A stretch of 64,000 nt of DNA, from contig NZ_OU015584.1 of NCBI RefSeq assembly GCF_907165195.1, forward strand, positions 3,854,978 through 3,918,977. Reading direction: 5' to 3'. This document shows positions 61,417 to 64,000 of this stretch, piece by piece. The notes under the pieces were generated by a model, which saw only the letters and a program-made list of their open reading frames with translations, was not told the origin of the DNA and did no database searches. Each line of letters starts with the position of its first letter. The first letter of the stretch is position 1. The stretch is from Parvicella tangerina (GTDB lineage Bacteria > Bacteroidota > Bacteroidia > Flavobacteriales_D > Parvicellaceae). Both the position numbers and the translations under genes were made by a program.

Positions 61417-62547
61417 ATGGCTGCTACCCTGACCCTAAGACATATTAGTATTGACAACGCTCCTTGCATTGGTTTATCTTTTCCGCATCGGCCGGATGTT
61501 GTGAAGTGTGTTACCTCCATTCCGAATGTGCAATATGACGATGATTCACAGCAGTATTACTTATATAATTCGAAAAAGAACCTAAAACTGATTTACGCAT
61601 ATTGTAAGGGGCGTGTTTGGGTATCTGGCGATGATTTCTTTAAGCGTGACAATCCTAACTTGGGTAGCAATCCGATGGAGGCGGATTTTGAGGTATACAG
61701 TTCTGAGACGTATCATCGAAAGGTGCCTGAATCTTACTTAAACAAGTTGAAATTGAAGCGTTATTCTGCGAACACTGCACGTGTGTATTGCGGTATGTTT
61801 GAACGCTTTATTAACTATTATTTGGAGATTCCGGTGGATCGGATAGACGAGCGTGATATTGAGGCTTATTTAATAAAGATGGTGGAGGAAGGGCGTTCTC
61901 CGTCTTATCAAAACCAGATGATCAATGCGATTAAGTTTTATTACGAGATTGTATTGGACATGCCGAATCGTTTTTATAAGGTGGATCGGCCGATGGCGGC
62001 TAAGAAACTGCCGGAGGTATTGAGCACGGAGGAAGTGGCCACCATGCTGAAGGGGTGTAAGAATTTGAAGCATCAATGCATTTTATCTTTGTTGTATTCT
62101 GCAGGGTTACGCAGGAATGAGTTGTTGAACTTGAAGCTGCAGGATATATTGAGTGATCGGATGATGATCAGTGTGAAGAGTGCCAAGGGTAACAAGGATA
62201 GGATGACGGTATTGAGTGAGCAGGTTTTGCATAAATTACGGGATTATTATAAGGTATATCGACCGAAGGTTTATTTGTTTGAGGGTCCAAATGGTGGGAA
62301 ATATAGTAGCACTAGTGTGGGCAACATCGTTCGTAAAGCAGCTCAGGCCGCTGGTATTCAGAAGCGAGTGACTGCTCATACGTTGCGTCATAGTTTTGCG
62401 ACACACTTATTGGAAGCTGGGACAGATTTGCGCTACATCCAGGTATTATTAGGGCATGAAAGCACCAAGACTACTGAGGTTTACACGCAGGTTGCGACAA
62501 ATTTTGCACAGGGGATAAAAAGTCCGATAGATTCCTTAAATTTGTAG
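61417..62547 (+). CDS. Tyrosine recombinase (XerC/D-type), candidate cassette integrase
   Basis: A 376-residue site-specific recombinase from ATG at 61417 (a TTG at 61402 is less likely). An N-terminal extension of about 100 residues with a W-x-x-P-like binding region precedes the SAM-like core-binding domain (about 110-200). The catalytic set is complete: Arg in SAGLRRNEL, Lys in SAKGNKDRM, HxxR in HTLRHSF, His in LLGHES and the Tyr nucleophile in TTEVYTQV. The IntI-specific insertion before HTLRHSF is absent, so it is not a classical integron integrase. Immediately downstream lies an att-like hairpin and an array of small genes, so cassette integration is its likely job. Confidence 0.9.
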   Translation: MAATLTLRHISIDNAPCIGLSFPHRPDVVKCVTSIPNVQYDDDSQQYYLYNSKKNLKLIYAYCKGRVWVSGDDFFKRDNPNLGSNPMEADFEVYSSETYHRKVPESYLNKLKLKRYSANTARVYCGMFERFINYYLEIPVDRIDERDIEAYLIKMVEEGRSPSYQNQMINAIKFYYEIVLDMPNRFYKVDRPMAAKKLPEVLSTEEVATMLKGCKNLKHQCILSLLYSAGLRRNELLNLKLQDILSDRMMISVKSAKGNKDRMTVLSEQVLHKLRDYYKVYRPKVYLFEGPNGGKYSSTSVGNIVRKAAQAAGIQKRVTAHTLRHSFATHLLEAGTDLRYIQVLLGHESTKTTEVYTQVATNFAQGIKSPIDSLNL

Positions 62548-62554
62548 GACACAT

Positions 62555-62603
62555 AATGTATATAACAACCACTAGTGGCTGTTATACATTCGTTGGCAAA
62601 CAT
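62555..62603. other. Recombination-site-like hairpin downstream of the recombinase (attI/attC candidate)
   Basis: AATGTA, a two-base bulge, TAACAACCAC / GTGG.TGTTA and TACATT fold into a nearly perfect hairpin (62555-62590), followed at once by CGTTGGCAAACAT. The 3' end GTTGGCAAA (62592-62600) looks like an integron-type core site. It lies eight bases after the recombinase stop, so part could also serve as terminator. No left core (NNCCAAC) is present, consistent with attI or a degenerate attC. Confidence 0.65.
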
Positions 62604-62628
62604 AAAAATGAAAATATTAAAATAAATT

Positions 62629-63174
62629 ATGAAAAAAACATTATTATTAACATCAGTTCTAACAGGATTAACATTTTCTGCTATTTCACAGAACTCTAAT
62701 TGCGAAGATTCTTTAAATATCTTGCAAAAAAAAATAGACTACTTAGAACAAAGAAGTCCTGAATATAAAGCAACTTATTTAGCTAAAACAAGCACATATG
62801 AATTACAATTTTTAGACGCAAGCTTTGAGAGTTCAGGAAAATATAAAGTGAACCTTTTGTTAAAAAATACAGGCGATGATAAAGTCATCATCATTATACC
62901 CGAAGATATAGACCTAATAGACGAAAAAGGAAATGGTTATAATTGTACTGATATTAAATTAGGTAACTCAGAAATAAAATACAGTAGTAGCTGGGGTAAG
63001 TGTGCTACAAACACTATTTATACCAACGTACCTACTAAATTATCTTTGACATTTGACTCGGCTAATGACATTGACTTTATCGCTATTTGTGTTATTAAAT
63101 TAGTAATGGACAAACAAGCTTATAATGCACCAAAGCTGACACTTAAATTAAATAATATTCAGACTAAAAAATAA
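62629..63174 (+). CDS. Secreted cassette-borne protein (paralogue 1)
   Basis: A 181-residue protein with a signal peptide (KTLLLTSVLTGLTFSAIS), a short coiled coil (SLNILQKKIDYLEQRS) and a beta-sandwich-like domain (about 60-180). That domain shares FLDASFESSGKYKVNLLLKN, CTDIKLGNSEIKY and WGKCATNTIYTNVPTKLSL with the next gene. Two Cys (NCTDI-like and GKCAT) are conserved between the two. Function unknown. Placed within 40 bases of the recombination-like site, it is the first gene of the cassette. Confidence 0.78.
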   Translation: MKKTLLLTSVLTGLTFSAISQNSNCEDSLNILQKKIDYLEQRSPEYKATYLAKTSTYELQFLDASFESSGKYKVNLLLKNTGDDKVIIIIPEDIDLIDEKGNGYNCTDIKLGNSEIKYSSSWGKCATNTIYTNVPTKLSLTFDSANDIDFIAICVIKLVMDKQAYNAPKLTLKLNNIQTKK

Positions 63175-63187
63175 TCAATATACTAAA

Positions 63188-63649
63188 ATGAAACAATTTA
63201 TAATACTCACAATTATTGCCATCTTTTTCGTTTCTTGTTCAACAGTAAAAGAAGTCAGCTCAACAACAAATTTTGAAGTGACTTTTGTTAGTGCAAAAGC
63301 AGAATCTTCTGGAAAATATAGAGTTGATTTATTAATAAAAAACCTAGGCGGTGACAAATTAATCTTTATACAATCTGAAAAAGTAACATTAATAGATAAG
63401 GAAGGTGTAAACTATACCTGTTCGGACATAGTGTTAGGTAACTCAAAACTGAAATATGATAGTTATTGGGGGAAATGTATAACAAACACTCTTTATTCAA
63501 ACGTACCGACAAAACTATCTCTTTACTTCGACACGGCAGAAAACATAGAATACATCTCAACTTGTGCTATTGAATTAATTCTTGAAAAAAAATCTTTAGA
63601 TGCTCCTAAAATCACTTTAAAATTAAACGACATTTCAACTGAGAAATAA
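63188..63649 (+). CDS. Cassette-borne lipoprotein (paralogue 2)
   Basis: A 153-residue lipoprotein with lipobox FVSC at residue 16. The mature domain is a clear paralogue of the preceding gene: AKAESSGKYRVDLLIKN, CSDIVLGNSKLKY and WGKCITNTLYSNVPTKLSL. It starts 13 bases after the first gene's stop without an att site between, so both genes form one cassette. Its shared Cys pair may form a disulfide. Similar tandem pairs suggest a membrane-anchored and a soluble version of one protein. Confidence 0.8.
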   Translation: MKQFIILTIIAIFFVSCSTVKEVSSTTNFEVTFVSAKAESSGKYRVDLLIKNLGGDKLIFIQSEKVTLIDKEGVNYTCSDIVLGNSKLKYDSYWGKCITNTLYSNVPTKLSLYFDTAENIEYISTCAIELILEKKSLDAPKITLKLNDISTEK

Positions 63650-63655
63650 TAACGA

Positions 63656-63855
63656 TTTGCCAACAAGGGCTATAGTTAATGTGGGTTTTTGTAGTAAATT
63701 AAAGGTTTAGAGCAATAAATTAACACCGCTAAATCTTTGATTTAGCTTTTAAAAGGAAATTAAGTTAAAAACAAAATACAAAGATTTAGCTACGTGCGGA
63801 ATTGATAACTATCGCATTTCAATCCCACACTAACCATAGCCAGGTCGTTGGGCAC
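63656..63855. other. attC-like recombination site (200-nt imperfect palindrome)
   Basis: Outer cores TTTGCCAAC (63656-63664) and GTTGGGCAC (63847-63855), the latter matching the integron GTTRRRY core. Inside, GGCTATAGTTAATGTGGG (63668-63685) pairs with CCCACACTAACCATAGCC (63824-63841) at 16 of 18 positions. The unpaired spacers between core and stem arms are 3 and 5 bases. The 138-base apical part holds GCTAAATC-TTT-GATTTAGC (63728-63746) and the related CAAAGATTTAGC (63779-63790). R-L-loop-L-R order, mismatched arms and length recall large attC sites such as those of Vibrio. Confidence 0.65.
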
Positions 63856-63926
63856 AATGTGAACAAAAACTGTAAAACTCATTGAAAATTGTTGAAACCG
63901 AAATCTAAAATTTTTAAATTTACGTT

Positions 63927-64000
63927 ATGAATACAATAGTAAGAGAACCAGTAGTAACGTATAATCAAATAAATTTAAGTTTTGCTAATTACACCAAAGA
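63927..64000 (+). CDS. Start of the next cassette gene (partial)
   Basis: An ATG at 63927 opens a frame (MNTIVREPVVTYNQINLSFANYTK...) that runs off the window. It begins 72 bases after the attC-like site, as expected for the first gene of a second cassette. Too little is visible to assign a family. Confidence 0.6.
   Translation, partial: MNTIVREPVVTYNQINLSFANYTK

Follow-up and report, generated by a model that had tools for sequence, protein, structure and literature searches.

A gene-cassette array beside a tyrosine recombinase without the IntI insertion in Parvicella tangerina: a probable new variant of integron

The final 2.6 kb of the window (the whole 64,000-nt stretch of DNA analysed, positions 3854978-3918977 in the 3.98-Mb single-contig genome of Parvicella tangerina, NZ_OU015584.1) holds the beginning of an array for gene capture, which comprises at least 21 cassettes. 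Our reading of the locus, to which we attach a probability of about 0.88, is that it is an integron of a new variant, with the tyrosine recombinase encoded at 61402-62547 as its integrase. Sequence alone shows the succession of cassettes, the position of the crossover, the association with a clade of recombinases, the co-oriented, downstream placement of the array, and also the lack of the IntI insertion in the recombinase and the near absence of extrahelical bases from the sites; no recombination, circular cassette or enzyme activity was observed. The sequence 3' of the window was analysed to the end of the contig, and positions in it are given as S coordinates (window position = S + 59999, genome position = S + 3914976). 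The main features are as follows.

61402-62547, plus strand: tyrosine recombinase (integrase) gene, 381 aa from TTG 61402 or 376 aa from ATG 61417
61417-61647, plus strand: extra N-terminal domain of the recombinase, about 75 aa, with weak structural matches only
62552-62594, plus strand: attI-like site; hairpin 62556-62590, then crossover C^GTT 62591-62594, the GTT being at 62592
62592-63846, plus strand: cassette 1, 1255 bp, GTTGGCAAAC ... ATTTGCCAAC plus attC; ends mutually complementary
62629-63174, plus strand: cassette 1 gene a, secreted protein of 181 aa
63188-63649, plus strand: cassette 1 gene b, lipoprotein-like, 153 aa; its sequence resembles gene a
63655-63855, plus strand: attC-like site 1, 201 nt, palindromic; R'' GATTTGCCAAC, L'' GGCTATAGTTAATGTG, L' CACACTAACCATAGCC, R' GTTGGGCAC
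63847-64000, plus strand: start of cassette 2, with a new gene from 63927; the cassette runs to genome position 3921020
after cassette 2, to about genome position 3943473, plus strand: cassettes 3-21

The initial annotation described a hairpin, two small genes, a palindromic site and a new gene 3' of the recombinase, and all of these are present (62556-62590 to 63927). It also supposed that the pattern would continue to the right, which it does: 21 complete head-to-tail cassettes lie 3' of the recombinase, in about 26 kb. The plan of the sites, R''(..YAAC) - spacer - L'' - variable loop - L' - spacer - R'(GTTR..), recurs at least 21 times between window position 63655 and S 28497. The 21 array sites are about 74-204 nt in length, with R''/R' boxes, an unpaired spacer, an L''/L' stem and a variable loop; in attC-like site 1 the L stem has two A.C mismatches, 5 nt apart. 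The core proposed earlier, GTTRRRY, proved too long, as the actual core is GTTR... and the bases beyond the R are free.

Insertion at G^TT predicts pairing between the bases that follow the GTT opening a cassette and those just before the AAC at its other end; in an array, the R'' and R' of any one site come from different cassettes. Over the 21 cassettes the outer bases were complementary in 125 cases out of 126 within cassettes, compared with 50 out of 126 within sites. The permutations had a mean of 46 and a maximum of 78, and none of the 20,000 reached the observed value. As far as sequence alone can establish it, this own-end complementarity is the trace that integron recombination at G^TT leaves behind. 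Hairpin repeats of the REP or MITE kind, dispersed between genes and without any gene capture, would be consistent with the long palindromes, the stem families that are held in common and some internal repeats, but they cannot give each gene unit complementary ends, nor explain a fixed place 3' of the recombinase. Among the loci examined, moreover, the sites outside the array amount to one more cluster (173.5-178.8 kb) and a solitary site. When the same genome was searched with the DNA of the whole site, the matches elsewhere were related sites only and not a dispersed repeat, and we give dispersed hairpins next to no credence.

A box-and-stem detector, which requires a stem, the polarity of the site and exact own-end complementarity, was used together with the own-end test in place of a covariance model, which is unsuited to these sites because the length of the variable loop varies from about 10 to 140 nt. 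Nineteen validated cassettes were detected in the array region and one in the 32 kb beyond the array; none was found in 10 block shuffles of the array region, nor on either strand of the remaining 61.4 kb of the window. In a class 1 integron, the detector identified the attC of the GES-24 cassette as well. The second small cluster, at about 173.5-178.8 kb of the genome on the minus strand, has three validated cassettes, and no recombinase was noticed in the stretch examined; the single site is at about 2580 kb. After cassette 21 the array ends with a site interrupted by a group II intron and then, by visual inspection, a ParD/RelE-like toxin-antitoxin cassette; from about S 31980 the genes are chromosomal again. 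A maturase gene of the intron (L022 9328-10599, minus strand) lies inside the interrupted attC-like site.

Cassette 1 starts at the GTT at 62592, directly after the hairpin, which marks the hairpin as the attI-like site; it has a counterpart in other genomes. The comparison of strains for cassette gain or loss that was suggested in the initial annotation is answered by two Chryseobacterium plasmids, whose near-identical backbones carry different cassettes. The backbone and recombinase are common to both, with 95.8% identity over 1.19 kb including attI, and the two are entirely different from ...AAACAA^GTT onward, i.e. from exactly the attI crossover. It is because the pair diverges at the GTT that the crossover at attI can be positioned there. 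Together with own-end complementarity, this exact break refutes the dispersed-repeat explanation. The expectation that an attI next to the integrase is where cassettes enter is met, resting only on position, the hairpin and the plasmid pair.

Within the array, the neighbouring cassettes 4 and 5 do not differ at any of their 787 bp. A 460-bp cassette occurs at positions 11 and 20 (L021 14975-15434 and L022 7236-7695), with 2 differences between the copies; it has no ORF of 80 aa or more and contains a long internal inverted repeat. The identical cassettes 4 and 5, along with an erm(F) cassette 96% identical to a Bacteroides copy (described below), point to recent events. They count against the view that this is a fossil integron, in which the array would be static and the recombinase would have another role, for example in dimer resolution. 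Breakage of a site near the array end by the group II intron, and the internal stops of some recombinase homologues, are what such a view would draw on; the window recombinase itself is intact with all its catalytic residues, and the genome has further tyrosine recombinases, two of them XerC/D-like. We consider a fossil very unlikely.

The product of 61402-62547 matches Pfam Phage_integrase (2e-36), and its catalytic residues R237, K262, H326, R329, H352 and Y361 are invariant across 35 homologues. Compared to 2A3V, the solved integron integrase of V. cholerae, it has 22 residues where IntI has about 65, a gap of about 43, and the spacing from KGNKDR to HTLRH is 58 residues against 100 in IntI. 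From these alignments the IntI-specific insertion is absent, as had been claimed at the outset. The match to TIGR02249 (integron integrase), 204.6 bits and split in two stretches, does not meet the cut-off of 265. The KGxxDR-HxLRH distance is 53-67 throughout the group to which the enzyme belongs and 100 in IntI, with only a few odd reads between them. A maximum-likelihood tree, which had been proposed as a check, supports the IntI clade at 100/100 with no Bacteroidia recombinase inside it; the window recombinase falls outside that clade and groups with its Bacteroidia relatives (100/99 for seven). The deep branches are weak (bootstrap below 50), so a single origin of the array-bearing enzymes is not demonstrated.

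The further claim that the enzyme is of XerC/D type can be kept only in part. It has in common with XerA, XerC and XerD the core fold, the catalytic residues and the lack of an insertion, but it scores below the family cut-offs (XerC, 174 bits against 335; XerD, 192 against 330), has an extra N-terminal domain, and is linked to cassette arrays rather than to dif. The score with the XerA_Arch model NF040815, named 'site-specific tyrosine recombinase/integron integrase', was 217.5 bits, slightly below the cut-off of 220, and the closest solved structure is the archaeal XerA-like 4A8E.

The extra N-terminal domain, found neither in IntI nor in XerC/D, is predicted at a mean pLDDT of 90 and is present twice in a Rufibacter homologue. 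The best structural match was to the N-terminal domain of XPB (Z 6.9, rmsd 2.9 over 62 residues), and HARP (SMARCAL1, 4O66) was matched with a Foldseek probability of 0.85 and an E of 0.09; the profile match to 4O66 was at E 1.5 only. Since the Foldseek and VIA matches are weak, no family is claimed, and the predicted model indicates only weakly a fold like that of the HARP and XPB N-terminal domains.

The sites themselves differ from those used by IntI. An unpaired (extrahelical) base in L'' was present in 39 of 42 validated sites from IntI loci compared to 19 of 149 Bacteroidia sites, while an A.C mismatch was present in 5 of 42 and 143 of 149, respectively. The mismatches of the Bacteroidia sites are strongly polar, A.C outnumbering C.A by 236 to 22. 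When each locus was counted once by its majority, the L'' bulge was found at 9 of 10 IntI loci and 4 of 54 insertion-less loci (p 2e-7), and the A.C mismatch at 0 of 10 and 51 of 54 (p 2e-9). In the genome of the window most sites have two A.C mismatches 5 nt apart. An A.C mismatch becomes a G.T pair in the bottom strand, so that the bottom strand, and not the top strand, folds as an unbroken stem. That the mismatch sets the choice of attC strand is an inference from pairing alone. In the structure of IntI, a helix of the insertion contacts one extrahelical base in trans, and the extrahelical bases direct strand choice (PMC3053210, PMC2727003), which makes the joint loss of insertion and extrahelical bases coherent. 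The most interesting part is that the helix and its ligand base are both gone and that a different polar mark is found instead.

In the mechanism that we propose for this integron, the recombinase would insert and excise circular gene cassettes, each a gene with one attC, by joining attC-like hairpins to each other or to the attI-like site immediately downstream of the integrase gene, with cleavage at G^TT; catalysis is inferred. The inferred substrate is the folded bottom strand of the attC, and the strand would be chosen through the phased A.C mismatches (G.T in the bottom strand) and the unpaired spacer, which would replace the extrahelical bases. The extra N-terminal domain may help to read the distorted hairpin, again by inference. 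It is possible that a promoter in or near the integrase gene drives the first cassettes.

A homologue of the recombinase (E <= 1e-60) was present in 125 of 295 Bacteroidia genomes, the class being assigned by inference from named loci. IntI above the TIGR02249 cut-off was found in only one of these 295 (G186:C40:3592-4530). There was no IntI match in the complete genome of P. tangerina or in 150 genomes of the order. The built-in controls of this search were also without IntI, and the positive control is the phylum-wide search, in which 84 of 296 genomes have IntI, all but one of them outside Bacteroidia. The arrangement seen in the window is repeated in related genomes, as the initial annotation would require: 40 homologue loci were sampled, 31 had at least 2 kb of 3' sequence, and 26 of the 31 carry co-oriented 3' cassettes. 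The sampled Bacteroidia loci have 81 validated cassettes, every one of them 3' of the recombinase; at IntI loci in other classes of the phylum, 28 cassettes lie 5' of the integrase in antiparallel orientation and a single one lies 3' of it. In a collection of named genomes, co-oriented 3' cassettes were found at 16 of 23 Bacteroidota loci; similar recombinases from other phyla had none at any of 25 loci. Homologues with room for an array but without one (5 of 31 and 7 of 23) mean that some relatives may do something else. Several draft contigs stop within 300 bp of the recombinase stop codon, as repeated sites would cause, and the first search of relatives gave no linked arrays because its loci were only 2-4 kb long.

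These counts bear on whether the array is an ordinary IntI array with its IntI elsewhere (a CALIN), the recombinase being a bystander such as the integrase of a plasmid or island. CALINs are common in bacteria (PMC9024848), and the sites do have the R and L box plan of an attC. However, the complete genome has no TIGR02249 match, the sites are without the extrahelical bases that IntI uses, and the recombinase is directly 5' of the first cassette, in constant orientation, at dozens of loci. The bystander explanation is largely refuted and keeps no more than a slight chance. The proposal of the initial annotation that this is an integron-like gene-capture platform of Bacteroidota distinct from IntI integrons is supported; the platform is widespread in Bacteroidia and not a one-off.

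A second group of insertion-less recombinases, of about 267 aa and with a motif spacing of 53, was seen in viral contigs (L154-L190, e.g. L165 and L171). Its arrays, of up to 17 linked cassettes, are on the 5' side and antiparallel like those of IntI, and its sites have A.C mismatches in 62 of 62 cases and bulges in 8 of 62. L165 is phage-like by gene content. A contig of the candidate phylum Peregrinibacteria (L131) has a homologue with two validated cassettes, 5' and antiparallel.

The array cargo includes resistance genes. Cassette 9 is erm(F), a resistance gene of clinical relevance (599 bits, cut-off 575). From its first base (GTTATGCGGC) it is 96.4% identical over 900 bp to a Bacteroides fragilis plasmid, and its tail with the attC has a 94% match to a second stretch of the same plasmid. 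There erm(F) lies beside tet(X2), which ends in GGCACATAAC followed by a full attC, the R' of which is the start of the erm(F) cassette. An Empedobacter tet(X) is bounded by GTTATGTGCC...GGCACATAAC. In pHH1107, an attI-like palindrome and a truncated recombinase homologue immediately precede tet(X3), which begins with GTTATGTGCC; the 3' end of this tet(X3) is not the matching box. Judged by these boundaries, the tet(X) and erm(F) units have the form of cassettes. A 'xerD' adjoining tet(X) was noted earlier and left unexplained (PMC7473080). The 'xerD' genes beside tet(X) (tnpF of pHH1107, xerD of the tet(X3) contexts) are 56% identical to the window recombinase in the aligned C-terminal part but, unlike it, are N-terminally truncated and have no array remaining.

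Cassette 2 encodes a D12 DNA methyltransferase and a NOV_C-domain protein, probably a restriction-modification pair, and another cassette a class D beta-lactamase (266.9 bits, cut-off 250). Further cargo comprises a mercury transport protein, UzuA (Uzume defence family), a toxin-antitoxin pair and many unknowns; neither gene of cassette 1, the secreted protein nor the lipoprotein-like one, had a Pfam match. The names are family matches, and the functions were not assayed. The classes of cargo are the usual ones of integrons.

The locus resembles IntI integrons in several respects: an attI adjoins the integrase, the cassettes follow one another head to tail and consist of one or two genes and an attC, the sites have R''/R' and L''/L' boxes and a central spacer that is unpaired, crossover is at G^TT, and the cargo includes resistance, phage defence and toxin-antitoxin genes. 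It is nevertheless not an IntI integron by four tested features, namely the additional domain, the family score, the clade and the extrahelical bases. Its recombinase is outside the IntI clade, without the insertion and with an extra N-terminal domain; most of its sites have phased A.C mismatches in place of extrahelical bases; and its integrase gene is 5' of the array and co-oriented, where that of IntI is divergent. In the chromosomal integrons of Treponema the integrase is likewise reported to be non-divergent from the array, but these use a true IntI, which is absent here.

We think it likely, though less surely than the reading of the locus itself, that recombinases without the IntI domain run cassette systems in much of Bacteroidia, with a divergently placed form in phage contigs; that the attC strand is chosen in them by mismatches (G.T in the used strand) and not by extrahelical bases; that the IntI domain and the extrahelical bases are a co-evolved pair dispensable for integron function; and that erm(F), tet(X) and similar resistance cassettes have their original home in these systems. 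Messier & Roy (2001; cited in PMC2426708 and PMC3053210) are reported to have found that IntI needs its extra domain to be active. Integrons have been defined and searched for through IntI and this domain, and here a large bacterial class has arrays without it. The arrangement is missed by present integron tools, and work with IntegronFinder gave almost no integrons in Bacteroidetes (PMC9024848). No earlier description of this type of integron was found in the open-access literature, preprints and most subscription journals being outside the scope of the search. If the wider reading is true, a main path by which genes are captured and resistance spreads in Bacteroidia has been overlooked until now, and ideas on where the tet(X) and erm(F) units came from can be put to the test. 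How integrases select the attC strand can be tested directly through the joint loss of the IntI insertion and the extrahelical bases.

Two observations concern the DNA 5' of the recombinase. A divergent gene for a small zinc-ribbon-like protein lies upstream of it (60517-60906, minus strand), and a similar-looking protein is found at the corresponding place in Persicobacter (L043 7507-7908, minus strand). Just 5' of the integron, at 60032-60434, there are intergenic repeats in copies of 85-102 bp (GATGATGGATTAACGA..., CCTCCGCCTGGCGGCACCTCCCCTCGAAGGGGAGGA).
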